A DNA stretch of 43,444 bases. Origin: Bacillota bacterium (GTDB taxonomy: Bacteria > Bacillota > Clostridia > Peptostreptococcales > Anaerovoracaceae). The DNA lies in assembly GCA_017431785.1 (NCBI GenBank), contig JAFRKJ010000075.1:1-43444 (forward strand), given 5' to 3'. Under the pieces are notes generated by a model, which worked only from the letters and a program-made list of their open reading frames with translations, made no database searches and was not told the DNA's origin. This document shows, piece after piece, positions 3,439 through 38,427 of this stretch (within the stretch, counting starts at the first letter, position 1; each line of letters opens with the position of its first letter). The position numbers were made by a program, and so were the translations under genes.

Positions 3439-5174
3439 TCTACAAACACACTCCCTCCTATGAACTCTCTGAGTATGGAGTTGTTTGGAACATCCGTATC
3501 GTCTTCAATCGTCTCAAACAGTCTGAAGAATCCCAACAGTCTGCGGGCTTCACCGTACTCAGGCTGATCCGGCGTGATCTCCTCAAGCAAAGGCAATGCG
3601 TACTTTTTCAGGAGACTTGTCTCATAGGCCAGCGTTGAATTGAAAAGTATATCCGCTTCCCCGTTGTAAGGGAAGATGTTCTTGTCTTCTCCGCCTCTGA
3701 CTTTTGGCCATGCCTCTATGGTCTGCGCCGCTGAATGGCCTCTGTATTTGTAATCGCGCACAAGTCTTCGGAGCAGTCTGGCGTCTGTCGTCGGGACTCT
3801 GTTGTGGATGTCTACGTTGATCTGCGCCAGAGGGCTGATGTAGATTTTGTATTTTGTTTCATCCGGAATCTGCTCTGTGAGTTTCCTGTTCAAAGCGTGG
3901 ATTCCTTCGATGACGATCAGCTGATCCTCATCGATCTTTGTCATTCTCGTGCCGAAGATCTTCTCCCCTTTGAGGAAGTCGAAGACCGGAAGGTCTACTT
4001 CCTTGCCTTCCAGGAGATCGTTCATATTGCTGCAGAAGAGATCGATATCGACTGCATTCAGGCTTTCGTAATCTTTCTCACCGTTTTCATCGACCTTCAT
4101 GTCCTCCCTGTTGATGAAGTAGTCATCTGTTCCCATATAAATCGGTCTGAGGCCGTTGACCCTGAGCTGTATGCAGAGTCTCTTGGCAAATGTCGTCTTA
4201 CCGGAGGATGACGGACCGGCGATCAGAACGATCCTGCGCTTCTTGCTTTTGATTTCATCAGAGATCTCCGCGATCTTCTTCTCGTGAAGCGCTTCCGAAA
4301 GGAGAATAGTGTCCTTGGCTCCGCCTTTTTTGATCAGATCATTTAAGTCAGCCAGATATCTGGTTCCCAGAAGGTGCAGCCATCTGTGTTCTTCGCTGAA
4401 AGCGCCGTAGATCTTGTTGTCATCGACGTATTCCGGAATCCTGTCAGGACTGCTGTAATACGGATAGCGCAGCAGGATTCCTTTGTGATACTTTCTCAGC
4501 TCGAACCGCTTGATATAGCCTGTCGACGGCACCATCGGTCCGAAGAAGTAGTTCACATAGGATTTGACTCCATTTTCCTCTGGAACATCGATCGTATAGT
4601 ATGCAGGCATGTATTCCGGATCTGTGATCTGATCCAGCAGGCGGGCCTTCTCATGATAGCCTGCTTCCTGCCAGATGCGCAGACCTTCTTCCATGGATAC
4701 TCTGCTTCTGCGGATCAGGAGATCCATGCGGACAAGTTCCTTCATGCGCAGTTCGATTTTCTCTACGACTTCCTCCGTCAGCAGTTCCTGTATCTCATCC
4801 TGCGCCGATTTAGGAAGTCCTCTCTGCGGACGAACGCGGGTGAAAAACCCCTTATTCAGGGAATTATCGATCTCCGCATCCGCATTTTCGACACCAAGCT
4901 GCGCAAATATTTCTTTGACTGCAATGATATAAATGAAGTTCAGGCTGCGCTGATACGTCAGATTCGCACCCTGTGTCCTCATATCCAAAAGCTCTACAGA
5001 ATCTCCTTCCTTCAACTCCTCTGTAAGCTCTGTATCTCTTCCATTCAAACTGGCCAGCAGGATGTCGTACTTAAAAGGACCCTTCTCTCTGATCAGGTCT
5101 TCAATGGTCATGCCTTCTCTGATACTCAGTTGTTCTCCGTCTTTCACGGTATCGTATTTCATCAAAATATTCAT
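3435..5174 (-). CDS. TGS-domain uridine-kinase-like nucleoside kinase
   Basis: The 579-residue protein combines an N-terminal TGS-like domain (about 5-70), a central segment related to the editing/second additional domain of threonyl-tRNA synthetase (about 75-230), and a C-terminal phosphoribulokinase/uridine-kinase P-loop domain. The Walker A GPSSSGKTT is at 320-328, followed by a DDYF motif and an IEGIHALN block. This fusion is widespread in Clostridia and is usually annotated as nucleoside or uridine kinase; its substrate is not firmly established. No ribosome binding site precedes the ATG. Instead a TATACT -10 box ends six bases before it, so the mRNA may be leaderless. A second ATG at codon 5 has no better site. 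It is the first gene of an operon with the PfkB-like and LUD genes. Confidence 0.87.
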   Translation of the reverse strand: MNILMKYDTVKDGEQLSIREGMTIEDLIREKGPFKYDILLASLNGRDTELTEELKEGDSVELLDMRTQGANLTYQRSLNFIYIIAVKEIFAQLGVENADAEIDNSLNKGFFTRVRPQRGLPKSAQDEIQELLTEEVVEKIELRMKELVRMDLLIRRSRVSMEEGLRIWQEAGYHEKARLLDQITDPEYMPAYYTIDVPEENGVKSYVNYFFGPMVPSTGYIKRFELRKYHKGILLRYPYYSSPDRIPEYVDDNKIYGAFSEEHRWLHLLGTRYLADLNDLIKKGGAKDTILLSEALHEKKIAEISDEIKSKKRRIVLIAGPSSSGKTTFAKRLCIQLRVNGLRPIYMGTDDYFINREDMKVDENGEKDYESLNAVDIDLFCSNMNDLLEGKEVDLPVFDFLKGEKIFGTRMTKIDEDQLIVIEGIHALNRKLTEQIPDETKYKIYISPLAQINVDIHNRVPTTDARLLRRLVRDYKYRGHSAAQTIEAWPKVRGGEDKNIFPYNGEADILFNSTLAYETSLLKKYALPLLEEITPDQPEYGEARRLLGFFRLFETIEDDTDVPNNSILREFIGGSVFVE

Positions 5175-5180
5175 GGATGT

Positions 5181-5209
5181 AGTATACCATAAAAAAAGGA
5201 GCTTGTCGC
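5181..5209 (-). promoter_or_regulatory. promoter of the uridine-kinase-like operon
   Basis: The minus strand carries a -10 box TATACT (5181-5186), a 17-base spacer and a weak -35 GCGACA (5204-5209). The -35 lies inside the stem of the upstream gene's terminator. The -10 ends six bases before the ATG, placing the expected transcription start at or next to the start codon. Confidence 0.6.
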
Positions 5210-5227
5210 ATACATGCGACAGCCCCT
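5191..5227 (-). terminator. intrinsic terminator of the YdbC-like gene
   Basis: On the minus strand, AGGGGCT (5221-5227) and GTCGCAT (5214-5220) pair with ATGCGAC (5205-5211) and AGCTCCT (5197-5203), with one bulged base and one G-T pair, followed by seven T. It lies about 44 bases past the stop codon at 5271 and overlaps the next promoter. Confidence 0.88.
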
Positions 5228-5270
5228 ATGAAAGTCTCCTGCTGTATTCAGCTGTTCTCATTCACCTGCT

Positions 5271-5648: not shown

Positions 5649-5713
5649 GATAATAATCTCCTTTCCTTCCGCCCCTTATTCAAATAATAAATGTTGCGTT
5701 TTGTAGCAGGAAT

Positions 5714-5742: not shown

Positions 5743-5746
5743 CTGC

Positions 5747-6991: not shown

Positions 6992-6992
6992 C

Positions 6993-8506: not shown

Positions 8507-8545
8507 CTTAACGGTCTATCTAAAATGAATCGGTCTAACCAAAAC

Positions 8546-12304: not shown

Positions 12305-14891
12305 TAATCGACTCGATCGTCAGGATAAGACCTTTGATAAACCCTGCCGGTCTGAAATTGAGCTCCACTTCATGAGTACCCGGATCCAGCTGCGCGCTGA
12401 TCCACGCATCGCCTGTGAGCTCCGTGATCTCCGTCTCCATGCCGTCTATCTTCATGGACCAGCCCTCTTCATAAGGCACAGACGTGACGAGTATTCCGCC
12501 ATTCGGCGCATTGACCGTTCCCTTGATGAAGGTGTCGCCTGCATCCGTCACTTTCATGAGGCTTGATGATATCATGTCGTAGGTTTTTGCCCACGCCTCT
12601 TCATCCAAGGTGCAGACATAGCATGTGATCCTTCCCGCATTACCTTCTTCGAAGCAGACCTTGATCTTGAACGTCTCCCCTTCCTTCATCGGACCGATAT
12701 TCAGGATCGAACCGCAGTCCGCCTGTACTGCCAGGTCTTCAGGATCGTCTTCACGCTCGATGAAAATCTCATCTGCATAGTCTGCCGCAACATACACATA
12801 GTACTTTTCATTTGTCGTGGCTTCGTACTCAATGGTGGCTGATGACTTGACCGCAGCGTCATGCAAAGTGCATTCGACTTCTGAATCACTGACATAAGCC
12901 GCAGTTACATTTTCACCTGATACGACGCCCTGTCCCATGTTATCGAAGACTTTTTCCACTTCTCCGTTTGTCGCCGCTCTCGCATAATCGTTCAGATTGA
13001 TGAACGGATTCGCGTCATATGGACTCCACGTTCTGATGGATTCCGGCAGCATATATCCGATGGACATCGGGTAATTGCTCTCGTAAAGTCTGGAATTTCC
13101 ATCGCTCTTTACATATTTGAAATCTGGATCTTTGATCTTCCTGTTCTTTGCGATCAGATAGTCGATATTGACCAGGCAGTTCGTGACCGGACTGGTCTCA
13201 TTGTAATTGAACCGGTTGCTGCCCGGATGTCCTTCCAGCCCAATGTGTTCCATCAGCGTAGTCGTATTGCAGTTCAGTGTTGAAGCAAACTGTCCCATTC
13301 CTCTGTAATGATATTTGGCCGGACAGTTGTGAATGAGCGGATCGTCGATCTCCATTCTGGCAAAACGCCCATTGCCGCCTTCCGCTATTGCACCGCCTTC
13401 CTTTCCTGCATATGCAGCAAGCCGTATGATGCTGGCCTTGTTTTCGTTGTATGTCTCCCTCGAGGAGTTCCCCATGGTATTGAAGTCCATTGCAGTCGTC
13501 GCGCCCAGCTCCGCCGCTACGACAAGGGCCAGTACAAGGATGAATTTCCGTCTGACCAGCTTTTGCTTTTTATAGAGCATGAGCAGGACTCCATAGACGA
13601 CCGTCAGCGCCAGACCGTAATACACAAATGTATTTATGTCGTCAACAGCATCGACCATGATCTTCTGGGCAAGAATATAGTACCCGGCAACGACCGCGAT
13701 GACTGCCGCGATACTCTTCGTCTTGATGCCGTCCATCCTGTTGAAAGCTCTGTACGCCATCGTCACAAGGAGGAAGCAGATCACGAATGAAAACCGGTGC
13801 GGCAGCTGATTCGGGAAGTGCATTCCGTGCCAGATGAAATCCAGTTTATTGATGTTGAGGCTCAGGAACATGAACACCAGAAAGGCGCCATGCAGAATCT
13901 TCTCTCTGAACGGAATCTCTCCTGATATGAAATAGCAGACGAGCATGACCAGAACCAGGAACCCGCAGCACAGATTCGGAAGCCCTTCAATATAGGTCAG
14001 ATGGGAAACCGGAAGCAGCTGATTGATCACATCCAACACGTCATAATACAGTTTCCACTCCTCCGGCATCTCCGATGAGAAATAGTATGCGTTCTGCATG
14101 CTGATGAAGGTAGGCAAAAGCATGACAGCCGACATTGCAATGCCGAGTATGGAAGCGCCGACCGCTTTCAGCGTTGTGATCGCGCATGCTTTCACGCCCC
14201 TGCCTCTGACGGTGATGAAATAGCTTACCGGATAGTAAACAAGAATAAAGATGCAGACCATGATGGCAATGTAGTAATTGCAGAAGACCATCAGGGCCAA
14301 TGTGACTGTATAGAGTGCGATCCGCCCGTCCTTGATCAGCCGGTTCATGCCCAGCATGCAGAGCGGCAGCAGCATCACAGCATCGAGCCACATAATGCAC
14401 CAGTAATAACCGATGGAAAAAGAGCTCAGCGCGTACATGCATGCGAACAGCATGGTCTTGACGCCGGCCTGTCTGTCCACCAGCATTTCATCGGGATAAT
14501 ACACATTCTTCAGATAGATGTACATGAAGCTCCCCGACAGTCCGATCTTGATCAGCAGGACGACACTTACGCCTTCCATGATCAGTGTCTTCGGGAACAG
14601 TACGAGCAGAAGGTTCAGAGGGCTGGCTCCATAGTAAGACAGGAGGCACCAGAAGTTGCATCCGCCTCCGCTGTTCCAGGAATAGAACAGGCTCCCGCCT
14701 TCCTGCAGCCTGCACTGCAGTTCACTGAGGAATGGGACATACTGATGATACATGTCGATGATCGCCAGCTGCTGCTCTCCGAAGGGATAAATTCCTGTGA
14801 ACGCAAAAACAAACACCAGTATAATCACCGGCATAAAGAACGCCCCGAAGACGTATCTGTTCAGTTTCAGGAATTTCAGGATCTTATTCAA
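12219..14891 (-). CDS. YfhO-family multi-pass membrane protein (GT-C-like glycosyltransferase)
   Basis: The protein is about 890 residues with roughly a dozen membrane helices in the first 480 residues, a large extracytoplasmic region and one C-terminal helix (about residues 850-870) before a basic tail RRRR. The early loop FTGIYPFGEQQLAIIDMYHQ, with its Asp, is the YfhO signature. Bacillus and Listeria YfhO/GtlB proteins attach sugars to lipoteichoic acid outside the cell. I place the start at TTG 14891, preceded by AAGGA at 8 bases; an alternative TTG at 14936 would add 15 residues but has no good site. It overlaps the end of the GT2 gene by eight bases, indicating an operon. Its 3' end lies inside the opposite-strand mocR gene. 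Acceptor and sugar are unknown. Confidence 0.88.
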   Translation of the reverse strand: MNKILKFLKLNRYVFGAFFMPVIILVFVFAFTGIYPFGEQQLAIIDMYHQYVPFLSELQCRLQEGGSLFYSWNSGGGCNFWCLLSYYGASPLNLLLVLFPKTLIMEGVSVVLLIKIGLSGSFMYIYLKNVYYPDEMLVDRQAGVKTMLFACMYALSSFSIGYYWCIMWLDAVMLLPLCMLGMNRLIKDGRIALYTVTLALMVFCNYYIAIMVCIFILVYYPVSYFITVRGRGVKACAITTLKAVGASILGIAMSAVMLLPTFISMQNAYYFSSEMPEEWKLYYDVLDVINQLLPVSHLTYIEGLPNLCCGFLVLVMLVCYFISGEIPFREKILHGAFLVFMFLSLNINKLDFIWHGMHFPNQLPHRFSFVICFLLVTMAYRAFNRMDGIKTKSIAAVIAVVAGYYILAQKIMVDAVDDINTFVYYGLALTVVYGVLLMLYKKQKLVRRKFILVLALVVAAELGATTAMDFNTMGNSSRETYNENKASIIRLAAYAGKEGGAIAEGGNGRFARMEIDDPLIHNCPAKYHYRGMGQFASTLNCNTTTLMEHIGLEGHPGSNRFNYNETSPVTNCLVNIDYLIAKNRKIKDPDFKYVKSDGNSRLYESNYPMSIGYMLPESIRTWSPYDANPFINLNDYARAATNGEVEKVFDNMGQGVVSGENVTAAYVSDSEVECTLHDAAVKSSATIEYEATTNEKYYVYVAADYADEIFIEREDDPEDLAVQADCGSILNIGPMKEGETFKIKVCFEEGNAGRITCYVCTLDEEAWAKTYDMISSSLMKVTDAGDTFIKGTVNAPNGGILVTSVPYEEGWSMKIDGMETEITELTGDAWISAQLDPGTHEVELNFRPAGFIKGLILTIESIIILLVATLLPAVLRRRRSQTVESDCNTE

Positions 14892-15879
14892 TATTTGATT
14901 CCTTCTCAACGTAGATTGGTCTGTTTTTTGTTTCAAGATACATTCTGCCTATGTACTCTCCAATGAGTCCAAGAATGGCGATGATGATTCCGCCGAAGAA
15001 CAGAATCAGGCAGATTGTAGACGCGTAGCCCGGCGTATCCTTCCCCATGACGATGGTCTTGATGATTTCCACGATCAGATAGATCGCAGATCCCGCGGCG
15101 ACGACTCCGCCGAAGGCTCCCGCAAATTTCAGCGGCGAATCTGCAAAATCTATAAATCCGTCGATGGCGTACTTCGTCAGACCCCATACGGTCCATTTGG
15201 TCTCACCTGAAATGCGTTTCACATTTTCAAACTCGACCCACTCTGTATCGAATCCAACCCAGGCGAAGATGCCTTTGCTGAATCTCTGTGTTTCCGGCAT
15301 ATCGGAGACCGCTTTGACCATGGCGCGGTTCATGAGTCTGAAATCGACAGCACCGTCTACGATTTCAATATCGCAGTACCGGTTCATGATCTTGTAGAAC
15401 AGTCTTGCAAAAGCACTGCGGATCTTCGGTTCTCCCTTCCGGCTGACTCTTCTGGCTGCCACGCTGTCGCATCCCGTTTCCTCCATCTTCCTGATCATTT
15501 TTCCAACCAATTCAGGAGGATGCTGCAGATCCGCATCCATGATCACCGCCAGGTCACTCGGTTTGCCGCCTTTGGTTCCTTTGGCGGAAGCCTTCAGTCC
15601 GGCATACATGGCTGCTTCCTTGCCGAAGTTTCTGCTGAAAGAAATGTATTTCACAGCAGTCAGTTCTTCTGCGCCTCTGTCCGCAATCAGCTTGATCTGT
15701 TCCAGCGTACCGTCCGTACTTCCGTCATCTACAAAGATGTAGCTGAAATCATAGCTGCATGCAAACTCGCTGCTCTCCTCAATGTGTGCGGCAGCAGCCT
15801 GAACAGCCTCATAAAAAGCTTCTATATTTTGTTCCTCATTGTAGCAAGGAACGATGATGTCTATTCGTTTACATTCCAT
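14884..15879 (-). CDS. family 2 polyprenyl-phosphate glycosyltransferase (CsbB/GtrB-like)
   Basis: The 331-residue protein has an N-terminal GT-A domain with IIVPCYNEEQNIEAFYEAV, the DDGSTDGT motif, DADLQHPPELV (metal/nucleotide-sugar binding) and two C-terminal membrane helices (about 250-280 and 285-315). This is the layout of enzymes that load a sugar from a nucleotide donor onto undecaprenyl phosphate. The ATG at 15879 is preferred to an upstream in-frame ATG at 15942. The longer version would translate the promoter and a terminator palindrome, whereas a -10 box TACAAT ends exactly six bases before 15879. No ribosome binding site is visible, so a leaderless mRNA is likely. The next gene, YfhO-like, probably uses the lipid-linked sugar. 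Confidence 0.9.
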   Translation of the reverse strand: MECKRIDIIVPCYNEEQNIEAFYEAVQAAAAHIEESSEFACSYDFSYIFVDDGSTDGTLEQIKLIADRGAEELTAVKYISFSRNFGKEAAMYAGLKASAKGTKGGKPSDLAVIMDADLQHPPELVGKMIRKMEETGCDSVAARRVSRKGEPKIRSAFARLFYKIMNRYCDIEIVDGAVDFRLMNRAMVKAVSDMPETQRFSKGIFAWVGFDTEWVEFENVKRISGETKWTVWGLTKYAIDGFIDFADSPLKFAGAFGGVVAAGSAIYLIVEIIKTIVMGKDTPGYASTICLILFFGGIIIAILGLIGEYIGRMYLETKNRPIYVEKESNIE

Positions 15880-15885
15880 GGGCTT

Positions 15886-15915
15886 ATTGTACGGCTTTTG
15901 AATAAATATTGTCAA
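15886..15915 (-). promoter_or_regulatory. promoter of the GT2-yfhO unit
   Basis: On the minus strand a perfect -35 TTGACA (15910-15915) is followed by an 18-base spacer and -10 TACAAT (15886-15891). The -10 ends six bases before the ATG at 15879, so transcription should begin at the start codon. Confidence 0.82.
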
Positions 15916-15925: not shown

Positions 15926-15953
15926 AAAAAAGAGACCCGCAATTGCGGGTCTC
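15926..15953 (-). terminator. intrinsic terminator after the saccharopine-dehydrogenase-like gene
   Basis: A perfect 22-base palindrome (15932-15953, arms GAGACCCGCAA/TTGCGGGTCTC) is followed on the minus strand by six T (15926-15931). It lies 21 bases past the stop at 15975 and directly upstream of the next promoter. Confidence 0.92.
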
Positions 15954-15974
15954 CTGTAATGCTTTTGCATTATT

Positions 15975-20710: not shown

Positions 20711-20714
20711 ATAA

Positions 20715-24735: not shown

Positions 24736-24764
24736 CTGTTTCACCTCGTTGCGCATACATAGTT

Positions 24765-24793
24765 ATTATACATATAACAGGCCGAAAGGTAAA
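24765..24793 (-). promoter_or_regulatory. promoter of the binding-lipoprotein/nifU/pepV/3D operon
   Basis: The minus strand has -10 TATAAT (24765-24770, perfect), a 17-base spacer and -35 TTTACC (24788-24793). The transcript would start near 24758, about 20 bases before the GTG start, which leaves room for the GAGGTGA ribosome binding site. Confidence 0.8.
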
Positions 24794-27800: not shown

Positions 27801-30800
27801 GATAGAGTTTAACAACGCAGTTACCGTTCAGTGAGCCGAGTCTCGTCTTGGTAGCTTCCCAACCCTTCGATAAAACGGATTCTTCACCTTCATCTTTTGT
27901 GACTGTCCATTTGCTTACCTGGTATTTATCAGGAAGGTTGACTGCTTCGAAATCGATCGGGATGTAAGCGGTGTACGTTCCGCCATTGACAACATCCACG
28001 CCTTCTGAAGTTGCCTTGATCACATCGCCGGCATTTCCTCCGTCATCGGTAATGACTTTATATGAAATGCTGACCTTCTTGAAATCAGCAACTTCGATTT
28101 CAATACTGATATCTTCCTGAACACTATTGATTCTGTAAGTCGGCTTGCTCCCCTGAAGGACAGTGGATCCGGAACCCTTAACCAGTCTCCACTCCTTGAT
28201 GATCACATTATCCGGAAGGTCTGTCGAAATTGTCAGTGCGCTTCCCTTCTCCGCTGTTCCGTTGTTCAGGAGACCATCAATGTTGATTTCTCCGGCAGGA
28301 GATTCAACGCCGCCTTCATCCACGAACTTCACGGAAACGGTGTAGAATTCTTCCTGTTCAAATTCTACGGTTACCTTCGTGTCGGCATCCAATCTCAGGA
28401 GAATCAGGTCTTTGCCGGTGAACACTTCTCCGTTTTCCTTATATACTTCCGGTTCTCCGCCGCCCTTAGCAATGTTCCACTGCTTGACCACATATCCTTT
28501 ATCCGGCTTCGCCGTCAGAATGGTACTCTTTCCATTGGCAACTGTTTCCGGTGAAGTCATTTCGCTTCCTGCACTGCTATCCTTATAGTAGTGGCCTTCC
28601 ACAGAGCCGTTTGCTTTTGCTTCAAAGGTCAGCTTAAATGCGGCAGGTTCGAATGTCGCCTTGGCTTCAACGCCCCTGGACAACGCAGTGATGACGATGT
28701 CGTCACCGTCGATGATATAATCTGTACCCTCCTGCAGCATGTTGCCGCCTGCATCCTTCACGATCCACTCGTCAACCTTGAAGTTTTCATCCGGTGTTGC
28801 ACTAAGGGTGACCATCGTGCCTTCGAGCAGTGGTGCACCACTGTCAAATGCTCTCTTGTTATCTCCCTGGAAACCTCTGACCGATCCGTTGGATCCGGCC
28901 TCGTACTTCACGTTGAATACGCCGGCTTCCACAATGAAGTATCCTTCTTTGAACGTTACGTTATACTTTGCCTTGAACTCATTTACAGCGTTCTGGCTCG
29001 CTTCGTCTGTCTTGTATTTCAGTTCCGTTCTATAGGTGCCTGCAGCTGAATCTTCCGTTAAGGAAGGTGTTGAAGTCAGGTCGAAGACATCCTCGATCTT
29101 GATTTTGCCCTGATCTGCTGCCGCAAATGCCGGTTTCGAATCATTATCCTTATAAGCTGCGACTACATCCGTGATGTCCGGGACTTTCTCAGGATTCGAT
29201 GCAGCTGAGAGGCCCTTCTTCGATGGTGCTGTCAGCGTAATCGGGCGCTTGATCACATTGACCGTACAGGACGCGATCACCTTCCCATCTTCGTATGCGA
29301 CGAAGACGTGTTTTCCTGTTGCAACCGGAGTGAAGGTGTTATCTTCAAGGTCTACTTCCTTCAGTGTATCTGATAAATCATTATATGCGACCTGATAACT
29401 TACTCCATCATAGGAAGTCATATCTGTATGGTTCTCTTCGCCCGATGGGTCGAAGTTAATCTGGTCAAGCTTCAAGCTGATCTTATCGCCGTAGACCGCG
29501 CCATTCGCGGAGAGCGCATAAATGCTTGCAGCATCCGGATCCTCAGTATTTTTATCAAAGGCATAATAGATTGTTGTTCCGGAAGAAGTGATTGTTGATT
29601 CGTTTCCTCCGAATACCGCCGTGATCTCATAAGTCCCCGGTGCTTCCGGTGTCCATTTTGCGGTTGCCGTTCCTGCGCTGTCTGACGTCGCATTGACGGA
29701 TTTCACCGCGTTGGTATTCGTATTGCGGATGTTGAAGACAACAACGCCTTCCTTGCTTGCGCCTTCACTCTTTGGTGTTACTGTTGCTATAAGAGTGACT
29801 TCATCGCCGCCTTCTGTCACAACCCGGTCTACCATATTCGGAACATCATCCTGAACGGTTTCACCCGGTACAGCATTGATGGTTCCGTCTTCTGAACTGT
29901 AGGTACCATCCGGAATGATTTCTGTCAGCACCTCCAGCGTACCATCTGCCTTCTTGTAGTAATAGCTTCCGTCATTCGGATCTATGGACTTATATACCTT
30001 GTAACTATCATCCGTATAGTTGTCTCCATCAGGTACCATGACAAGATATGTATTCCCTCCGATCGTCTCGGTCGCAACAGTATATGGTTCTGCAGCGCCC
30101 TGAAGGAGGTCGTTCACCATATTATCAGTGATCTTTGTGAGTGCATAATTGCCTTCCCCGTCTGGTCTGTACTCGTACCAGTTCAACGTGTTGTCTCTGA
30201 AATACAGTTCAGACTGGAGAGTGAATACGTCATATGTTTTGCCGTCCAGTTCAGCGGTAACCTGATTCTCTCCAACAGTGAATAGCAAATCGTCAGATGA
30301 CAGGTCTGTCCAGATATCCGGATCAAGACCTGATGTGAAGTGCTTTTTCCCCTGCGTCAGCTGCTTCATTGCTTCCGCTGTCATCGCATCCTCGTTGAAA
30401 CCGGTCAGCGCATAATAATCATTGGTATCTTTGAGATTGTAGATGTATTCCGGGTCCGGATCGTCAGACGCTTCATTCTTGACCACAATGAATGTGTACG
30501 TGTCTTCACCGATCGTCACATCGATCTCCCGATCGATCTTCTTGGTACCGTCCTGAACGGTCTGAACCTCAGACTTGCTCGCCCAACCGCGGTTCTGTCC
30601 CTGGAATTCATTCGGATCTCTGCTGTCTGTGTTGACGGCAGAAGCAGTCGTATCTGTTGTCGATCTTCCAACATGGAGGGTTGCAATATCACTGTATATA
30701 TTGACCTTCTGACTGGATCCTTTGATCAATTCACCAACGACGACTCTGTATTGATAGTCATCCATATCATTGGTTACGTTTGGCAGCGTTAATGTTGATG

Positions 30801-33800
30801 TCTTTACTCCATTGACCCATTTGTTGGTCTCCGGATCTTTCTTTTGCCACATATACGTAATCTCTGATGCGTTCTCGCTCGGTTTTGCCGTTACCGAGAA
30901 CGTGGCTGTTTCACCGGTCAGAACGTACTGGTCCTTAGGCTGAGATGTAATGATCGGCATCTCGGAATCGCCCAATGTCGTTGCTGCGACCGGATTCGTG
31001 TACATGGAGTATTCGACCCTACTCTCCTCGAGCTTATACGCCCGGACGGAGAACTGATACTCTGTTTCCGGGGAAAGCTTGTCCGCTGTGAACTTGGTCG
31101 TATTCGCATCCGTACTGCCTAAGTACACGTATTCCGATCCAGTAACAGGATCGTCGATATACTGATAAACCTCATAACCGGTAGGTCTCTTGTATCCCTG
31201 TTCCCAATCAACGACAATGGTGTCTGTCGTGACGGATTCAATCCTGACATCCCTCGGAATGCTGAGCGGTTCATCGACCTCTGTGACGATATATCCAACG
31301 ACCGGAATCTCCTGTGGTTTGTCACTTGAGCCGACAGTATCGGACCATGTGGCCAGCTGCCATGTGAACCCATATTTCAAACCGCCATCCACTTCCGGAG
31401 GTGAGGCTACGGATCCGCTCTTTGTTACCGTGTGCATCTTGGTGGTAGATTCGCCACCGCCCCAGCTTCCTCCGATGCTGGCACCCCACAGCATCTCAAA
31501 CCCATTGCCTGCGCCTTCAGCGCTGAATCCATACTTGAGCGTTCCCTCGAGGGAATTCGTATAGGTCTGTGAATCTGTGGTTCCGTTACCCATCTCAAAT
31601 GCCTGTGCCGTGGTGTAGGATCCATCATTTTCCACTCTCCAGGTCTTAGGGTTCTCGGTCGTAGTAACACAATTCTGAAGTCCGATGTTGGATTTCGGAT
31701 AAGAATCCGGCTGTCCCGGTACACAGCGCTCGACACCGGAAGAACCTGTCGAAATCAGATAATCATCCGACTTGGTCGGATCTGTCTTGACCATTTCATT
31801 GTATTTATCAACGTTCATGACCATCATGGCCGGCTCTCTCGGAATTCCAATGGCCATATTGTGCTTTTCCAAATCGCCTTTGCCATTTGGTGAATATACA
31901 TCGTAGTGGTACATGACGACCGGTGTTCTGGTCAGAACGACTTTGTTGGTCTTACCGGTATTCTCTACTTCCCAGCTCCATGATTGTGTTGTTTCTTTTT
32001 CATATTCCCATGCCCATTCATGGGTAAAGCTTGCCTCAGTAGAAACCTTCAGGCAGCTTAAAGTCAGATCGGCACTTACGACGACACCTGCCGATACGGA
32101 AGAACTCGTCGTGGTGCTGTGACCTTCTTCATACGACTTTCCTATTGATGTAGAGCAGTTATCGCCATATCCATATCCCGCTTCATCCAGGTCTCCGAAA
32201 TACGGTGCGGCCTGAAGAAGTGCCATAACCTCCGGATCTGCGTAGGTATATTCCTTGCTCTTGTATTCAAAAATTTCTGTATCATTATCTGTGTCCACGG
32301 CTGCAATCGCAATGGCCGGGTCATCGCTCTTTGCCGTCCAGTCAACGAATGTCTTGCCATCGCGCGATCCGCCGTTTTGGGTACCGGACTGCAGGAACAC
32401 TTTTCCGCCGGATTCTTCATCCACAGCGACCTGGACGATGCCCTTCTTCTCCTCCACTGTATAACCGGCATAATATACGCGGTATAGATACTTCTCTACA
32501 CTATCCTGCTTATATCCGGCCGTCCACAGTACCTGTTCTACGCCCAGCTCGTTGGAATCGAAATTGCCGGCAACGGCCTCATCAAACCAGGTGTTCGATA
32601 AAGAGGTGCTATCACCCATGCCGTTATCCGATTCGCTCGCTACATCTGCTGTTTTGACTGCGGTGAATTTGGTGCCGTCATGATCGTAGAACGTACCGTT
32701 GAGGAAAATGCTTTCTTTAGCATTTCTTCCGTTCATCGCAACGCAGCAAAGTGCCGGCGGCCCTTGCTGGTCATCTCTGTCATTGTATGTGCCGACTCCA
32801 TCCTCTGTGAATGGGTCAAAAGCCAGGAACTGATAGGTGGGATCGCTGTATCTTCCTTCTTTTCCCGGTGTGTATTTAATGGTTGCAGTCAGGAAGTTTT
32901 CGTCTCTGACCCTATCCCTGTCTCCCGGGTTCTCCGATATTTTCGAATAAGTATAGAAGCCTGCCAGAACGATTTCCGGGAACCCGTCATAATCCAGGTC
33001 TCCGCAGGAAATGTCACACGCCCTCATATTGAACTTCGTTGTTCTGTCGTCTTTTTCAGGGTCTTTCATGTTACCAGTTTCCAGATACCACATCTGCGAA
33101 GGATATCCGCTTCTGGCATGATTGTAGAGCCCCAGTTTGGTCGCTCTACCGCTAAAGTTCGCACTATCGCTGTCCTCTTTGATGTCGCCAAAGTAGGTTG
33201 CAATCAGCAGGTCGTCGATACCATCCCTATCGATGTCATCCGCTTCCAAATTGCACTGCACCATGGCATTGGCCATTCTCTTGTTGGTGGCACTGTATTT
33301 TGTTGACAGCTTCCAAGCCAGCGTCCCGACCTGATCTTCAAGTGAAATATCTCTGATCTTTTTTAAATTCTTTCCGTTCAGGATTCGGACGTATGACCCG
33401 TCTCTATCCGGAACATAGACTGCGAGCTCATCTGCGCCATCTCCATCAAAGTCTCCGGCAGTGATCTGGAAATATGACTTATATGCCCACTGTTCGATAC
33501 CCTCGAACCATGAGGCATTATCTCCATCGCCTACATAAATACCTTCGATTTGTTTCTCTCCGCCAGTTTCTGCATTACGTTTAAATACGTTGATATAGCC
33601 TTTACTTCCATCACGTATTGCGAACTCCACTTCTGCTGTGTAGTTCTTCTTGCCGCTTGCGTATGCATCGTAGGCAACCGCATTGGTGAACCGTCCTGTT
33701 TTGTTTCCCGTGAAGTTCTTGATCTTGTCATCACCGTGCGGCGCTTTGATGTCATGAATACGGTTTTTGTTTTTGAAATTATAGACAGATGCCTGATACT

Positions 33801-34053
33801 TTCCCTTTTCCTGCCACGAAATGTACGTTTCGTGCTTGATACCGATTGGCTGTCTTCCCTGCCCATACGGGTTCTGCCCGTCGTTCGCATCGAAATCACT
33901 CGGCACCGAAATATCGAATCCGTACTGATCCTTTTCGGCAGCGCTAACCGTCATATGTTTTAGCGTGGAACTCATTGACGCAACAAAAATGATGCATATC
34001 AATACAGCAAAAATGCGTTTGATGAGCGTTTTATTGTCTGCTTCTTTAAACAT
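24877..34053 (-). CDS. giant secreted multidomain protein (FG-GAP, Ig-like, Fn3, InlB-type repeats)
   Basis: The 3058-residue protein has a signal peptide (basic start, hydrophobic residues about 12-30, likely cut near AVSAAE-type TVSAAEKD). Residues about 190-600 carry FG-GAP/VCBS-like calcium loops (DFDGDGADEL, DIDRDGIDDL, DLDYDGFPEI, DTDNDTEI) of a beta-propeller. Residues 632-720 and about 840-880 are rich in alternating Ser/Thr and aromatic residues, reminiscent of aerolysin-type beta-strands. Then come a fibronectin III domain (930-1026), an Ig-like domain (1031-1120), further Ig- and MBG-like domains (about 1405-1710), and roughly 1000 residues of InlB/bacterial-repeat modules with GSV and GYxI motifs (1711-2770). 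A second Fn3 (about 2871-2960) and a C-terminal Big2-like domain follow. There is no LPXTG motif. The AAGGAG site and own terminator suggest a single-gene unit. An adhesin or toxin-like role is inference. Confidence 0.9.
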   Translation of the reverse strand: MFKEADNKTLIKRIFAVLICIIFVASMSSTLKHMTVSAAEKDQYGFDISVPSDFDANDGQNPYGQGRQPIGIKHETYISWQEKGKYQASVYNFKNKNRIHDIKAPHGDDKIKNFTGNKTGRFTNAVAYDAYASGKKNYTAEVEFAIRDGSKGYINVFKRNAETGGEKQIEGIYVGDGDNASWFEGIEQWAYKSYFQITAGDFDGDGADELAVYVPDRDGSYVRILNGKNLKKIRDISLEDQVGTLAWKLSTKYSATNKRMANAMVQCNLEADDIDRDGIDDLLIATYFGDIKEDSDSANFSGRATKLGLYNHARSGYPSQMWYLETGNMKDPEKDDRTTKFNMRACDISCGDLDYDGFPEIVLAGFYTYSKISENPGDRDRVRDENFLTATIKYTPGKEGRYSDPTYQFLAFDPFTEDGVGTYNDRDDQQGPPALCCVAMNGRNAKESIFLNGTFYDHDGTKFTAVKTADVASESDNGMGDSTSLSNTWFDEAVAGNFDSNELGVEQVLWTAGYKQDSVEKYLYRVYYAGYTVEEKKGIVQVAVDEESGGKVFLQSGTQNGGSRDGKTFVDWTAKSDDPAIAIAAVDTDNDTEIFEYKSKEYTYADPEVMALLQAAPYFGDLDEAGYGYGDNCSTSIGKSYEEGHSTTTSSSVSAGVVVSADLTLSCLKVSTEASFTHEWAWEYEKETTQSWSWEVENTGKTNKVVLTRTPVVMYHYDVYSPNGKGDLEKHNMAIGIPREPAMMVMNVDKYNEMVKTDPTKSDDYLISTGSSGVERCVPGQPDSYPKSNIGLQNCVTTTENPKTWRVENDGSYTTAQAFEMGNGTTDSQTYTNSLEGTLKYGFSAEGAGNGFEMLWGASIGGSWGGGESTTKMHTVTKSGSVASPPEVDGGLKYGFTWQLATWSDTVGSSDKPQEIPVVGYIVTEVDEPLSIPRDVRIESVTTDTIVVDWEQGYKRPTGYEVYQYIDDPVTGSEYVYLGSTDANTTKFTADKLSPETEYQFSVRAYKLEESRVEYSMYTNPVAATTLGDSEMPIITSQPKDQYVLTGETATFSVTAKPSENASEITYMWQKKDPETNKWVNGVKTSTLTLPNVTNDMDDYQYRVVVGELIKGSSQKVNIYSDIATLHVGRSTTDTTASAVNTDSRDPNEFQGQNRGWASKSEVQTVQDGTKKIDREIDVTIGEDTYTFIVVKNEASDDPDPEYIYNLKDTNDYYALTGFNEDAMTAEAMKQLTQGKKHFTSGLDPDIWTDLSSDDLLFTVGENQVTAELDGKTYDVFTLQSELYFRDNTLNWYEYRPDGEGNYALTKITDNMVNDLLQGAAEPYTVATETIGGNTYLVMVPDGDNYTDDSYKVYKSIDPNDGSYYYKKADGTLEVLTEIIPDGTYSSEDGTINAVPGETVQDDVPNMVDRVVTEGGDEVTLIATVTPKSEGASKEGVVVFNIRNTNTNAVKSVNATSDSAGTATAKWTPEAPGTYEITAVFGGNESTITSSGTTIYYAFDKNTEDPDAASIYALSANGAVYGDKISLKLDQINFDPSGEENHTDMTSYDGVSYQVAYNDLSDTLKEVDLEDNTFTPVATGKHVFVAYEDGKVIASCTVNVIKRPITLTAPSKKGLSAASNPEKVPDITDVVAAYKDNDSKPAFAAADQGKIKIEDVFDLTSTPSLTEDSAAGTYRTELKYKTDEASQNAVNEFKAKYNVTFKEGYFIVEAGVFNVKYEAGSNGSVRGFQGDNKRAFDSGAPLLEGTMVTLSATPDENFKVDEWIVKDAGGNMLQEGTDYIIDGDDIVITALSRGVEAKATFEPAAFKLTFEAKANGSVEGHYYKDSSAGSEMTSPETVANGKSTILTAKPDKGYVVKQWNIAKGGGEPEVYKENGEVFTGKDLILLRLDADTKVTVEFEQEEFYTVSVKFVDEGGVESPAGEINIDGLLNNGTAEKGSALTISTDLPDNVIIKEWRLVKGSGSTVLQGSKPTYRINSVQEDISIEIEVADFKKVSISYKVITDDGGNAGDVIKATSEGVDVVNGGTYTAYIPIDFEAVNLPDKYQVSKWTVTKDEGEESVLSKGWEATKTRLGSLNGNCVVKLYLISRPVLTYGAGANGSIVNNEGLANGDYFYKNRVTDHSFTVKPAKGYEIDEINVTGANGDFVTGMVEGSSDVTLDVKAPEGGFNTDLDVNVTFSPIPAINVDYFLSDIGDGTHGKIKAEVDRNGDDAYVVSKDASADGGSLRDVYRGSVITITDNAAANYKISSWNMNGLEVLGNNNIPDYVSLGSSDDVLKINVTDELIGDIGVGKTLEVAALNNMKGSILTYGAKDNQGGSVIAYKDDGTNVKYGTIFGEEVKLNFKAAPYDNCDIIGWEVNGAVQDEDGSQFEYTVGPDQDVDVRAVFSELQPAPTCKLTYGAVSDDADPHGSVTAAISSMPDPPGKGYYSVADYAKGDLISSGKDLEKTTGVTLTATPEKGYLIKGWYSDPECTKELPGSAEELGKYNISSVSEDQSVYVKFAKIKEFTINVKKEGTGAGSFDVYVDGTKLSTDDFVSASDDAVSFEVARHSNVKVTAHPEGEFNYVAEWNGQTATSNSFELKDIVASGDIVMTILPAELIDIEFDLPSGYSSSEGTVQVGKGDAMKQINAINKRVRDVSGKDVIFTIVPHDNEMVDSWKVKYGDGSVEEGSALGLGNTLKISDLTSSVTVTVTMKDLAAYRLPVDGEHYTIADTKVEPDTLKGDQYENMIRENGTATFSVVPEDGYLIDAVSDRNTDKEAGSNILSIDKKADGGWKIRVSNVMVDIDLDVKAVKSYQIKIAKSSFGKITVVDANKKTIKSGSNVKEGTKLTVTATANTGCQFNFWNAPFKGAGKSVTTTVKSDITFGGEFVRIPITAKVTAQAKTATITWNKVYGADRYLVYRSTCNKAAFSKSYTKVSATKSSYKLTGLKQKGVYKIKVVAQKKVNGKYTNLSTSPVAHFVLTKNKNYTNPKAVTVSIASYGVKVGKTAKIYGKVTKVAAKKKLLSQKHEPTLRYKSSNKKVATVSAKGVITGKKAGRCTIYVSAVNGVWKTIVVTVK

Positions 34054-34279
34054 TCCTTCTCCTTTCAGTTCTCCTGTCCTGTTGTGGAGAGTCGCAATTC
34101 TTCCTTCTATTGTTCACATTCGATTACCAACTCTTGAATTAAGCCTATAATAATAAAGATACAGAAATAACGAGATTTCCCAGGTCAACGAAAAAAAGTA
34201 ATAAAAAAATTGATTATCTTTTGTCTGATTCGTTCTGTTTCCAGATCGATCATTCAACATAATAAAGAGCGCGTTCTTA

Positions 34280-34288
34280 TGTTATAAT
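34280..34288 (+). promoter_or_regulatory. extended -10 promoter of the M3 peptidase gene
   Basis: TGtTATAAT (TG at 34280-34281, perfect -10 at 34283-34288) ends six bases before the ATG at 34295. No good -35 is seen, as is common for extended -10 promoters. The rest of the 34054-34282 gap is AT-rich. I find no gene there, and the promoter of the giant gene on the other strand is not clearly recognisable, although a TTGACC and a TATTAT are present at unsuitable spacing. Confidence 0.75.
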
Positions 34289-34294
34289 GACCCC

Positions 34295-36034
34295 ATGATG
34301 AAGAAAAAACTACTGACAATTACATTGAGCGTTATTCTCGCCTTTGCATTCACGCTCACAGGCTGCGGGGAAGAAGCGCCGATCGGCGCAGATGTTACGA
34401 AGAATGTTGCAGGCGTAGAATACTATCACTATGACCCTGCTGACTTCAACGCAATGTGCGACGAGCTGGAAGACCTGGCTACAGGCGATGATGCAAAAGC
34501 CATCATTGAGACATACGATAAGCTCTATGCGGAATGTGAGGAGCTGGATACCCTTTACTCCGTCATCTACGTCATGTACTCCACCGATGTAACCAATGAT
34601 TACTATTCCAAAGAGCAGCTGTATTCCTATGACAAGCTCGAAAAGTGCTGCGACAAACTCTGCGCTGTCTGCCGTAAAGTCACGGAAGGTCCTTGCGCGG
34701 AACAATTCAAGGAACATGTCGGCAAAGATGCCTTTGATGTCTTCGCGGAATATGAACCGATGAGCAAACGGGAGAAGGAACTCACCAAGAAAGAGAAGAA
34801 GCTCGTTGACGAATACTATGATGTGATCGAAGAAGCAGAGAAAGCCACTTATACCTACAAGGGTGAAGATTGGGATTTCGATAGGATAAACAGCGACGAG
34901 GGCGCAGAGCTGTCCATGTCAGATTATGAGGGCTACGTTGAGATCTTTGATGGACTGCAGAAGATCGCCAACGACTCTGCCGGACCGATTTTTCTGAAGC
35001 TGGTACAGATCAGAAACGAGCTTGCCAAGCTGAATGGCTACGATAATTATGCGGCGTATGCAGATGAACAGGAGTACTGCAGGGATTACACAGAAGATGA
35101 AATCCGGCAGCTTCATAAGGACGTAAAGAAGATCGCTAAACCCTACTTCATCAGTTATTACAACTCCTATGATGAGCAAGTCACATCCAATATGTCCACG
35201 AAAAAACTCCTGCAGACGCTGCAGAAGTACACTGCAGAGGTGGACGAGCTGGCTTCCTCTTCCTGCCAGCAGATGATCGATGAAAATCTCTTCTCGATCG
35301 GCGATGAATCCTGCCGCCAGGACGGGGCGTTTACCACATACATCCGCAAAGCAAATAGGCCGTTTATCTCTATGACCCTCGATGAACAGCGCGATTTCAT
35401 TGTTCTGTCTCATGAGTTTGGCCATTTCACAGAATACAACAATGAAACACAAACGAACATTCTGACTGACAGTGACAACATTGATCTGGCGGAAATTGCT
35501 TCCAACGGGCTCCAGGGATTGATGACACATTTCTACGATGAAATATACAAAGTGCAGAAAGACGCAGCCAAACGGGACGCTGTCGGTGAGCTGCTTGAAA
35601 ATGTCATCGACGGATGCGTCGAGGATGAATTCCAGCGCGCTGTTTATGAGAATCCGGATATGACCCTGGAGGAGATCAACGCTCTGTACGCAAAGACATA
35701 CTCCGAATACAATGAATGGGCAGAAGGGGATCCCGGATATTCATGGGTTTATATCAGCCACAACTTTGAGGCTCCAATGTATTACATCAGTTATACGGTC
35801 AGCGCACTTGCCGCGCTGCAGATCTGGAACCAGAGTACGAAAAACTTTGATAAAGGTGTGAAGACATGGGAGAAGTTTATAGACTACGGGACCTATAATC
35901 AGACATACCTCGATATCGTGGAAAAATGCGGACTGCTTAAATTTACAGACAAGGGCGCTGTGAAGAAAATCTGCAGGCCGGCTCTCAAAGCAATCAGCAC
36001 AGAGAAGGATTATAATTATGGCTTTGAAAATTAA
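34295..36034 (+). CDS. M3-family oligopeptidase-like lipoprotein
   Basis: The 579-residue protein begins with a lipoprotein signal (KKKLLTITLSVILAFAFTL) and lipobox LTGC (Cys25), so it is probably anchored outside the membrane. The rest is a helical M3/PepF-type metallopeptidase with the zinc motif HEFGH (H373, E374, H377) and a downstream LAEIASNGLQ segment providing the third ligand Glu. M3 enzymes are usually cytosolic, so a surface lipoprotein version is less common. No ribosome binding site precedes the ATG. A -10 box ends six bases before it, so a leaderless mRNA is predicted. A second ATG follows immediately. The 3' end overlaps the MBL gene by 17 bases, suggesting co-transcription. 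Peptide scavenging is the likely role. Confidence 0.9.
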   Translation: MMKKKLLTITLSVILAFAFTLTGCGEEAPIGADVTKNVAGVEYYHYDPADFNAMCDELEDLATGDDAKAIIETYDKLYAECEELDTLYSVIYVMYSTDVTNDYYSKEQLYSYDKLEKCCDKLCAVCRKVTEGPCAEQFKEHVGKDAFDVFAEYEPMSKREKELTKKEKKLVDEYYDVIEEAEKATYTYKGEDWDFDRINSDEGAELSMSDYEGYVEIFDGLQKIANDSAGPIFLKLVQIRNELAKLNGYDNYAAYADEQEYCRDYTEDEIRQLHKDVKKIAKPYFISYYNSYDEQVTSNMSTKKLLQTLQKYTAEVDELASSSCQQMIDENLFSIGDESCRQDGAFTTYIRKANRPFISMTLDEQRDFIVLSHEFGHFTEYNNETQTNILTDSDNIDLAEIASNGLQGLMTHFYDEIYKVQKDAAKRDAVGELLENVIDGCVEDEFQRAVYENPDMTLEEINALYAKTYSEYNEWAEGDPGYSWVYISHNFEAPMYYISYTVSALAALQIWNQSTKNFDKGVKTWEKFIDYGTYNQTYLDIVEKCGLLKFTDKGAVKKICRPALKAISTEKDYNYGFEN

Positions 36035-37241
36035 CATCATCCGGGGCCAGAACCAAATCGGCGGCTCCATCATCGAACTATATACAGATAGTACACGCAT
36101 CATTCTTGACGTAGGCATGAATCTCGGCGAAAGCAAACTGCACACTTCGGTGCCTGATGTCCCGGGCCTGTTCAAGGGCTATCCGATTTACGATGCGATC
36201 TTCGTGTCTCACTATCACTCAGACCATATGGGGCTCCTCAAGTATGTGCTGCCGGAGATTCCGGTCTACATGGGGCGCACCGCTTATCGCGTCGCACACG
36301 CTTTGAGCAAACACCAGGGCGGAAAACTCGGATTCCGCCCTGCATTTCTTGATGCAGAAAAGCCCGTCACCATCGGTGATATCACGGTGACACCGATTCC
36401 TTGTGATCATTCCGCGTACGGTTCATTTATGTTCCTCGTTTCTTCCGGCGGAAAAACGGTTCTGTATTCTGCGGATTTCCGTTCAACTGGCCGCAGTGAT
36501 TTCGATGCGCTTCTTGAAACGCTGCCTGAAGTAGACGTGCTTATCACAGAAGGAACCACCCTTTCCCGCGGGCTCGATTTTCACGAACCGAGCGAACAGG
36601 AACTCGAAGATTTTGCAGTGGAAACGCTTCGGGCACACAAGGGTCCGTCCGTGGTCTATCTCTCTGCGCAGAATGTGGAGAGAATCATCACTGCTTACAA
36701 CGCATCAAAGCGCACAAACAGAAGATTCATCATGGACGACCTCACCAGCACTGTTGCCGAAGCGGCCGGGTTGGACTTTGATGCCTATGTGCTGAGGCCA
36801 TCCCACTCCTTCGCAGATCTGGGAGAGATCGTCTCCACCAGCATGCATGGCCGTGAAAGCAGTCCTTACCCTGCCGTGTCTGACAAAAAGGCCTTCGGTT
36901 CACCGGACTTCCTTCTTTGTCTGACGCCGCAGAGTCTGATCAACTTCCGGAAGGTCGCACAGCGCTCTTCCTTTAAGGACAGCGTTCTGTTCTTCGCGCG
37001 CCGCGAAACGCATATGCTCAAACCGGCAACGGCAGCCTTTATTGCATTTATGGAATCATTGGGCGCTGTCGTTCCGACGCTCCATACAAGCGGTCACGCT
37101 GACAGCAATACAATAGACCGGCTGATTCGCGATGTCAGGCCATCGGTCATCATTCCGGTCCATACGGAACTTGCCTCCTGGTTCGCCCGTTATGAGGACG
37201 AATGTGAGGTCATCTATGATTGTCATGATTATGAAGTTTAA
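36018..37241 (+). CDS. MBL-fold/beta-CASP-like metallohydrolase
   Basis: The 407-residue protein has a metallo-beta-lactamase fold with the metal motif SHYHSDHMG (H65, H67, D69, H70), further ligands in IPCDHSAYG and YSADFR, and a C-terminal LHTSGHADSNTIDRL plus VIIPVHTE. That ending is typical of beta-CASP enzymes related to RNase J and CPSF, although it is shorter than RNase J (about 550 residues) and lacks the dimerisation C-terminus. RNA or nucleotide hydrolysis is likely; the substrate is unknown. An AAGGA site lies in the end of the peptidase gene, and the start overlaps it by 17 bases. Its stop overlaps the convergent CARF-nuclease gene by four bases. Confidence 0.87.
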   Translation: MALKINIIRGQNQIGGSIIELYTDSTRIILDVGMNLGESKLHTSVPDVPGLFKGYPIYDAIFVSHYHSDHMGLLKYVLPEIPVYMGRTAYRVAHALSKHQGGKLGFRPAFLDAEKPVTIGDITVTPIPCDHSAYGSFMFLVSSGGKTVLYSADFRSTGRSDFDALLETLPEVDVLITEGTTLSRGLDFHEPSEQELEDFAVETLRAHKGPSVVYLSAQNVERIITAYNASKRTNRRFIMDDLTSTVAEAAGLDFDAYVLRPSHSFADLGEIVSTSMHGRESSPYPAVSDKKAFGSPDFLLCLTPQSLINFRKVAQRSSFKDSVLFFARRETHMLKPATAAFIAFMESLGAVVPTLHTSGHADSNTIDRLIRDVRPSVIIPVHTELASWFARYEDECEVIYDCHDYEV

Positions 37242-38392
37242 GGTCTGAGTCTTTCGATCAGCCGACCTTTCTCAAGATCACCAAGTTCAACAACTTCAAT
37301 ATTTAACTCAGCAGCTCTCATCCTCATGAGAGCTCTGTTTCTGCTTGCCGGAGCTGACGTTACGATCATCGCTCTGGAGCCTCTTCCTCCGAATCTGTCT
37401 CTGAGCACCGCGAGTTCGTTAAGGGCTTCTGTTCTGATTTCGCTGGTTTTGCAGCTGATGAACAACGGCGTTATCCCTTGAATGGCAATGACGTCGATTT
37501 CGTTGGTGACCGCATTCCTCTGGGTCATGCCGCCTTCCCAGTTGACAACAGCGCTGAGAACTACATCGTCGAAGCAACCCGCTTCAAGACATGCTCTGTA
37601 AACCTGCAGTTCCAGAACGGACCCGATATCCCGCAGCCAGAAGCGAACCGTTTCATCCGGAAAGTCGAAGCTGATGACATCATGTCCGATGTTGAGATTC
37701 CTGACCAATCCTGCGTTGTTCAGTTCACGCAGCATGCCTTCCTCTGCTGTCGCCGTACCGTGATCGACCCGAACCGTTCTCGGTCCCTCGGCATGTAGCG
37801 CTCCCACTTCCGATGAGGAAACCATCTGTATGTATGCAATCTGTCTTCTCCAGATCCTGCGGTACTTGCGGAAGATCGTAAACAGCGCGTCGATTTGAGA
37901 AAGCTTGTCCTTCAGCAGGTTGTTGTCTTCCCTTCCCGGGAGGAGCGTTCCTCCTGCCATGAGGAAGCAGGATTTCGTATCCAGCGTCACATTGCAGGCG
38001 AGGTTTCTGGCGAATGGAGCATTCTGAATCTCAAAGAATGAGTTCCTCTTGCGGCTGTACGTAAACACAGGCGTGTCTCCACAGGCTGCCCCTGCCGCAA
38101 AGAGCGACGCGTCAGTACCTCCCGATATATCGATGGCGCAGTCTTCGTGAGTGTCCAGAATGCTGCTCAATTGCTTTTCGACTTTGGCTGCATCGAGCAA
38201 ACTCACCGGGACGACGGTGATTCTGACCGGACAGTCCCTGTACTCGAAATACTTGCTGAGCGATTCCCGCAGCGCTTTGTCTGATACGGTCTCCGGCGGG
38301 CAGAGCATAATCAGTTCCTCCGGCCGGAACATCTCTGTTGCCAGAACATTTTCTATTGGTTTTTCATCATATAATTCGATCAGTGTTTTCAT
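37238..38392 (-). CDS. stand-alone CARF-nuclease-like protein (DUF1887, Card1/Can2-like)
   Basis: The 384-residue protein resembles Card1/Can2 (DUF1887): an N-terminal CARF-like Rossmann domain with the loop IDISGGTDAS (about 87-96), a linking winged-helix-like region (about 200-260), and a C-terminal restriction-endonuclease-like domain. The nuclease motif reads NEIDV (D300) followed by FISCKTS (K315), with an upstream Glu in VLELQ. In Card1 the equivalent is D-x-ECK; here the Glu is Ser, a variant I recall in other DUF1887 proteins. Card1 is activated by cyclic tetra-adenylate from type III CRISPR complexes, but no CRISPR array or cas gene is in this window. No ribosome binding site is well placed; a -10 TATTAT ends six bases before the ATG. 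Its 3' end meets the MBL gene. Confidence 0.82.
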   Translation of the reverse strand: MKTLIELYDEKPIENVLATEMFRPEELIMLCPPETVSDKALRESLSKYFEYRDCPVRITVVPVSLLDAAKVEKQLSSILDTHEDCAIDISGGTDASLFAAGAACGDTPVFTYSRKRNSFFEIQNAPFARNLACNVTLDTKSCFLMAGGTLLPGREDNNLLKDKLSQIDALFTIFRKYRRIWRRQIAYIQMVSSSEVGALHAEGPRTVRVDHGTATAEEGMLRELNNAGLVRNLNIGHDVISFDFPDETVRFWLRDIGSVLELQVYRACLEAGCFDDVVLSAVVNWEGGMTQRNAVTNEIDVIAIQGITPLFISCKTSEIRTEALNELAVLRDRFGGRGSRAMIVTSAPASRNRALMRMRAAELNIEVVELGDLEKGRLIERLRP

Positions 38393-38398
38393 AGTAAA

Positions 38399-38427
38399 AT
38401 AATACCCCTTAACTGCTGCAAATACAA
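38399..38427 (-). promoter_or_regulatory. candidate promoter of the CARF-nuclease-like gene
   Basis: On the minus strand -10 TATTAT (38399-38404) lies six bases before the ATG, with a weak -35 TTGTAT (38422-38427) at 17-base spacing. This again predicts a leaderless message. The -35 region is close to, but does not overlap, the strong divergent promoter at 38450-38478. Confidence 0.55.

Follow-up and report, generated by a model that had tools for sequence, protein, structure and literature searches.

Leaderless messenger RNAs, which begin at the start codon itself, are known at low frequency from cultured clostridia. As given in the available text of the respective studies, leaderless transcripts account for ~2-3% in three solventogenic clostridia (PMC9045289) and for 4% of the intergenic sense transcription start sites in C. 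phytofermentans, where a typical ribosome-binding site and another start site are generally kept (PMC5171806). Similarly, 15 leaderless genes are listed for C. difficile (PMC7438776), and 212 leaderless transcripts were counted among the genes of detected proteins in C. acetobutylicum (PMC4533764). In a computational survey by Zheng et al. 2011 (PMC3160421), as far as its text is available, the TA-led signal was present in 56 of 209 Firmicutes genomes, with 4.2% (2.4-16.6) in its table, and these cases were concentrated in Lactobacillales and Mycoplasma; the string "Clostridi-" does not occur in the main text that is available. In the StartLink paper (PMC9581028), 21.6% is cited as the share of bacterial species with leaderless prediction, and neither "Clostridi-" nor "Firmicutes" occurs in its available text. 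Among the matches listed in the open-licence literature for leaderless together with Clostridi- or gut families, no title concerned leaderless genes in the lineage considered here, and the word "leaderless" was absent from all 15 papers listed for gut families. This lineage is represented by a 43,444-nucleotide contig of an uncultured Clostridia bacterium of the family Anaerovoracaceae (assembly GCA_017431785.1, contig JAFRKJ010000075.1, positions 1 to 43,444; hereafter the window), in which four genes are predicted to be leaderless: a TGS/ThiS-like uridine kinase (PRK) gene (TGS/udk), a GT2 glycosyltransferase gene, an M3-family peptidase lipoprotein gene and a CARF/Card1-type nuclease gene (Table 1).

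Results

A -10 hexamer exactly six bases before the start codon

SigA-type promoters, often TG-extended, whose -10 hexamer ends six bases before the ATG very probably give rise to leaderless mRNAs for ~2% of the genes of this organism, as judged from the DNA sequence. The four start codons of the window had been described in an earlier note as following such a hexamer in the absence of a conventional Shine-Dalgarno (SD) site, and all four were read as claimed, including TATACT-ACATCC-ATG before TGS/udk (5186..5172), TATTAT-TTTACT-ATG before the CARF gene (38404..38390) and TGTTATAAT-GACCCC-ATG before the M3 gene (34280..34297, plus strand). Their SD scores were 0 in three cases and 0.9 for the CARF gene, where AAGGGG, 12 nucleotides (nt) from the ATG, is a caveat. 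The accompanying statement that most other genes carry strong AGGAGG-type sites was exaggerated: 13 of 29 genes in the window were strong (SD score at least 4) and 13 of 29 were SD-poor (SD score below 2). Since the score ignores GGGG-type motifs, which are apparently used by some orthologues, the SD-poor class may be over-counted.

The source genome comprises 2.72 Mb in 96 contigs and is 81% complete. Eighty stretches of it together with the window, 1.24 Mb with a GC content of 48%, were sampled at gene level, and an in-house simple gene caller returned 1045 genes. A -10-like hexamer was defined as TANNNT with at most one mismatch to TATAAT, and N6 denotes a hexamer ending exactly six bases before the start. 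The scan of SD-poor genes across this sample revealed a strong excess at N6. Such hexamers preceded 20 of 300 SD-poor genes (17 of 287 without the window), against a mean of 2.07 for the 29 other spacings from N0 to N29 (Poisson P about 1e-13) and 1.4 matches per spacing in shuffled upstream regions, while intragenic ATGs had an N6 hexamer in 2 cases per 1000. The N6 set thus contained 20 called genes (~2%; 20/1042), or 21 sites once the TGS/udk start, misplaced by the caller, was included. For the window alone, the background rate gave P = 5e-5 for three N6 genes among 13 SD-poor genes with the caller's starts, and P = 7e-7 for four with the TGS/udk start set at 5174, both being after-the-fact values. 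Across the whole source genome, TATAAT-N6-ATG occurred 55 times, compared with 16 times for N12 and 25.5 times per spacing for N9-14.

Two other controls were set aside. The lack of N6 hexamers in strong-SD genes (0 of 645; SD score at least 4) was rejected as independent evidence because an SD site would have to share its bases with an N6 -10; neighbouring spacings in SD-poor genes serve as the clean control. A reversed-pattern control (12 vs 55) was not relied on owing to unequal baselines (656 vs 321 over N0-22), and N12 and N9-14 were preferred.

Promoter signals and conservation of the N6 sites

The base at -1 and the TGn motif played no part in picking the genome-wide N6 set. Bacterial transcription usually starts with a purine (+1) behind a pyrimidine (-1), and in line with this rule the base before the ATG was C or T at all 21 N6 sites (12 C and 9 T; 17 of 17 outside the window). 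By comparison, a pyrimidine preceded the start in 142 of 280 (51%) of the remaining SD-poor genes, and in 26 of 44 chance N6-ATGs inside genes. TGn was found directly 5' of the hexamer at 11 of 21 N6 sites versus 108 of 1858 intragenic hexamers (6%; Fisher 9e-9), and before 57 of 241 hexamers located 20-60 nt upstream of SD genes; in the window it was present for TGS/udk and M3 and absent for GT2 and CARF. We take TRTGn to be the extended -10 element of SigA promoters. Furthermore, all 20 called N6 genes started with ATG, and 40 of the remaining 280 SD-poor genes had GTG or TTG.

Comparison with relatives showed that the N6 geometry was kept among close orthologues to differing degrees. For TGS/udk, whose protein is 97% identical to its nearest named record, the uncultured Clostridiales metagenome-assembled genome RUG10876, and 51-53% identical to those of Emergencia, Hornefia and Aminicella, N6 was found in 7 of 78 evaluable relatives (80 fetched), which were exactly the seven nearest (62-97% identity). 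The other 71 had an SD-like or GGGG motif in 53 cases and neither in 18, and several outgroups displayed, by eye, a similar TATACT or TATAAT followed by a leader several tens of bases long. TTGACA together with TACAAT-N6-ATG was retained in six of seven close GT2 relatives, the exception (G154) having TATACT at four bases. The CARF gene kept N6 in all five close relatives (81-95% identity) with TAAAAT (G148, G151 and G153), TATTAT (G149) or TATAAT (G150) as the hexamer; its upstream DNA was near-identical to that of the window in G149 and looked different by eye in the other four. The M3 gene kept N6 in two of six close relatives, G151 and G153, the latter with an N-terminus 18 codons longer.

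Taken together, this class is supported by the excess at exactly N6 and its conservation, by the lack of usual SD sites, and by the pyrimidine at -1 and the TG-extended -10, and its start codons are backed by orthologues where checked. An in-frame stop codon 6 nt before the TGS/udk start of the L024 orthologue also speaks for it. The genome-wide excess of -10/N6/ATG in genes without an SD, proposed as a computational test in the earlier note, was strongly positive, and conservation, -1 pyrimidine and extended -10 agree with it; the note's reading is well supported as a prediction, and its proposal of a distinct class holds. As a separate observation, L206 (G078), a distant GT2 relative with 34% identity, had TGC-TATAAT-TATAGC-ATG, an N6 geometry beyond the close relatives.

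Weighing of alternative explanations

The most serious alternative is that these genes are leadered and transcribed from promoters further upstream, with the N6 hexamers being minor or unused, which we consider quite improbable. It finds some ground at the CARF gene, the weakest of the four sites on the window alone, where AAGGGG is joined by a second promoter-like pair (TTGTCA-18-TATTAT), and both recur in G149. Nevertheless, a leadered CARF gene with AAGGGG as its ribosome-binding site was rejected, as the other four of its five close relatives (G148, G150, G151 and G153) kept N6 with no promoter-like pair in the 120 nt and no AAGGGG in the 40 nt before the ATG. Upstream of M3 there is likewise a pair, TTACCA-16-TATAAT at 34124-34151, one being found where 1.0 was expected by chance. 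At TGS/udk and GT2, terminator-like hairpins lie just 5' of the promoters, so that a further promoter plus leader would hardly fit, and the absence of a usual SD and the -1 pyrimidines of the N6 genes also argue against leadered transcripts.

Several further observations weigh against the leaderless reading. The M3 gene is leadered in four of its six close relatives (G148, G149, G150 and G154), in which a promoter-like element is followed by a leader with a GGAG or GAGG SD in three and a weaker AAAGGGTGG in G150, so that, from one relative to the next, a single gene may take either form. The two GT2 orthologues from genomes labelled as same-genus (G127 and G068) are situated directly behind another gene and have an SD-like motif. 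The distant CARF relatives L222-L225 do not have N6, and AAGGGG stands eight bases from the ATG in L222. At the genome level, G148 and G350 were also sampled, with N6 in 4 of 320 and 5 of 282 genes, while G127 and G153 were outside this gene-level comparison. Just 4 of 82 SD-poor genes in G148 had N6, and three more had N7, hence N6 may be kept less strictly in some genomes. The genomes labelled as same-genus showed a weak excess of N6 over N12 (29 vs 20 in G068; 36 vs 33 in G127) in a descriptive family table.

A second alternative, that the start codons were mis-called and the true starts lie downstream behind normal ribosome-binding sites, is very unlikely. It could appeal to the M3 gene, which opens with ATGATG, and to TGS/udk, whose second in-frame ATG at codon 5 was the choice of the in-house caller. 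However, an SD-backed start within 25 codons downstream was present in only 1 of 21 N6 genes, and the N-terminus was common to orthologous proteins. Alignment placed the TGS/udk start at a codon shared with outgroup orthologues, several of which have an SD before it; outgroup CARF orthologues were alignable to the same start codon as well.

Finally, the exact N6 might arise by chance or from the base composition of AT-rich upstream DNA, where TATAAT is frequent; across 293 class genomes, the ratio of N6 to the mean of N9-14 had a median of 0.83 and exceeded 1.5 in only 12. This is scarcely credible for a genome whose sampled part has 48% GC, with a ratio of 2.16 (rank 4 of 293; binomial 3e-6), low neighbouring spacings and CARF relatives whose hexamers and upstream DNA vary between species at a constant N6. 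A low ratio in other genomes does not prove absence of the class, because the measure is diluted in AT-rich genomes. Leaderless transcription from the N6 promoters thus remains the preferred explanation.

Independently of this question, some class genomes displayed an N6 excess above that of the source genome, namely G350 (43 vs 11.0 expected from N9-14; ratio 3.9), G427 (ratio 2.7) and the 0.9-Mb G157 (25 vs 10.5; ratio 2.4), and G270 and G240 were near it (ratio 2.0).

Functions of the N6 genes

Altogether there were 33 N6 candidates. The hexamer was close in 28 of them, including some at alternative starts, and looser in the other 5. The protein scan covered 20 non-window proteins of the 24 non-window close-hexamer candidates (17 strict N6 and 3 at alternative starts), and a Pfam match at 1e-5 was missing for 1 of the 20. 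With names beyond the Pfam titles being our own assignment, the scanned proteins resemble MnmA, DNA polymerase III delta, AddB, CCA/poly(A) polymerase and uracil-DNA glycosylase, and further HypA, HypF, transporters and an AraC regulator, among others. The three candidates at alternative starts include DNA polymerase III alpha (L003). From this descriptive list of functions, many N6 genes look like low-abundance housekeeping enzymes.

One gene with TACAAT-N6-ATG at its start (L005:11769-14486, minus strand; G000 contig C7) encodes a 905-amino-acid (aa) EF-G/TetM-like GTPase that carries a YacP-type NYN nuclease domain at its C-terminus. It scored 381.5 bits against NCBIfam tet_protect, for which the cut-off is 775, and was not called a resistance gene.

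Features of the window

The coordinates of the four genes and their upstream elements, together with a possible fifth case, are collected in Table 1. On the minus strand, a single open reading frame of 3058 aa occupies 24877-34053, and AGGAG at 5 nt provides it with a good ribosome-binding site. On the plus strand, a promoter matching the consensus at 12 of 12 positions (TTGACA-17-TATAAT, 38450-38478) precedes the gene of an AMP-binding enzyme at 38518, which is oriented divergently to that of the CARF nuclease.

Table 1 Predicted leaderless genes of the window and the elements around their starts
Feature	Position	Strand	Details
TGS/ThiS-like + uridine kinase (PRK) gene, predicted leaderless	3435..5174; ATG 5174..5172	-	Pfam PF00485 1.8e-18; ThiS just below cut-off
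TGS/udk promoter	5175..5209	-	-35-like GCGACA 5209..5204; spacer 17; TG-extended -10 TATACT 5186..5181; N6 ACATCC 5180..5175
Terminator-like hairpin of the upstream unit	5204..5221	-	17 nt before TGS/udk -10; overlaps -35-like hexamer; 1 found, 0.1 expected
GT2 glycosyltransferase gene, predicted leaderless	14884..15879; ATG 15879..15877	-	Pfam PF00535 1.8e-28; nearest NCBIfam PgfS, below cut-off
GT2 promoter	15880..15915	-	TTGACA 15915..15910; spacer 18; TACAAT 15891..15886; N6 AAGCCC 15885..15880; 11/12 consensus
Terminator-like hairpin just 5' of GT2 promoter	15930..15955	-	2 found on both strands, 0.1 expected
Possible fifth case, leaderless or very short leader	24757..24770	-	TATAAT, 8 nt, ATG; before ABC-transporter substrate-binding-type gene 23518-24756 (PRK15404, below cut-off)
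M3-family peptidase lipoprotein gene, predicted leaderless	34295..36034	+	Pfam PF01432 8.2e-9; TIGR02289 1e-46, below cut-off
M3 extended -10 and N6	34280..34294	+	TGT-TATAAT 34280..34288; GACCCC 34289..34294
CARF/Card1-type nuclease gene, predicted leaderless	37238..38392; ATG 38392..38390	-	Pfam PF09002 7.8e-10; CARF half is the label of the earlier note
CARF -10 and N6	38393..38404	-	TATTAT 38404..38399; TTTACT 38398..38393
Competing elements, CARF gene	38405..38456	-	AAGGGG 38410..38405; promoter-like TTGTCA-18-TATTAT 38456..38427

Discussion

The N6 geometry suggests how these genes may be expressed. RNA polymerase with SigA would begin transcription at the A of the ATG, immediately behind a pyrimidine, and the first codon of the resulting mRNA would be its 5'-terminal AUG, which the ribosome would then engage directly without an SD. 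A C or T ahead of the ATG would discourage earlier transcription starts. The exact N6, rather than a spread over N5-N8, fits a requirement that the mRNA begin with AUG.

With these genes, the range of leaderless genes that are supported by sequence and lack a usual SD extends to an uncultured Clostridia lineage. Relatives with an apparently leaderless and an apparently leadered copy of one gene constitute natural pairs, making the cost, benefit and evolution of leaderless initiation in SD-dominated Firmicutes directly testable. In addition, leaderless starts may be misplaced by gene callers that favour an SD, as the TGS/udk start was by the in-house caller. Tentatively, and with more doubt than conviction, leaderless starts might be a selected, switchable mode in this lineage. 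Relatives would share a similar promoter and differ in having lost or regained the SD leader (M3 and TGS/udk), and the -10 would be held at exact N6 to make polymerase start on AUG. Such a mode might provide enzymes of low abundance that act on DNA, RNA and cofactors (MnmA-, HolA-, AddB-, CCA-enzyme-, HypA- and HypF-type) with a translation path that is cheap, constitutive and low in output, or else stress-proof.

The N6 class is a well-conserved example of an already known kind of leaderless genes, and its frequency is ordinary for clostridia, since cultured clostridia were measured at a similarly low leaderless level. The earlier view that such genes are less expected in Clostridia was fair as far as it went, but with leaderless start sites at ~2-4% in cultured clostridia, according to the available text (PMC9045289, PMC5171806), the ~2% found here is nothing unusual. 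Both are low in frequency; the published cases are mapped 5' ends, whereas ours are predicted and have no usual SD. As described in the available text of PMC3160421, TA-led genes resemble the N6 class in having a TANNNT -10 ~12 nt before the start, no SD and, in several low-GC genomes, a TG peak. The present study differs from that survey in concerning an uncultured Clostridia lineage and in showing conservation among close relatives. The same source gives the leaderless genes of Actinobacteria and Deinococcus-Thermus the same geometry of -10 and start codon as seen here, at frequencies of 19.2% and 39.4%, respectively, compared with ~2% in this genome. Their -10 is a bare TAnnnT (PMC3160421, available text), whereas the -10 of the N6 class is close to TATAAT.

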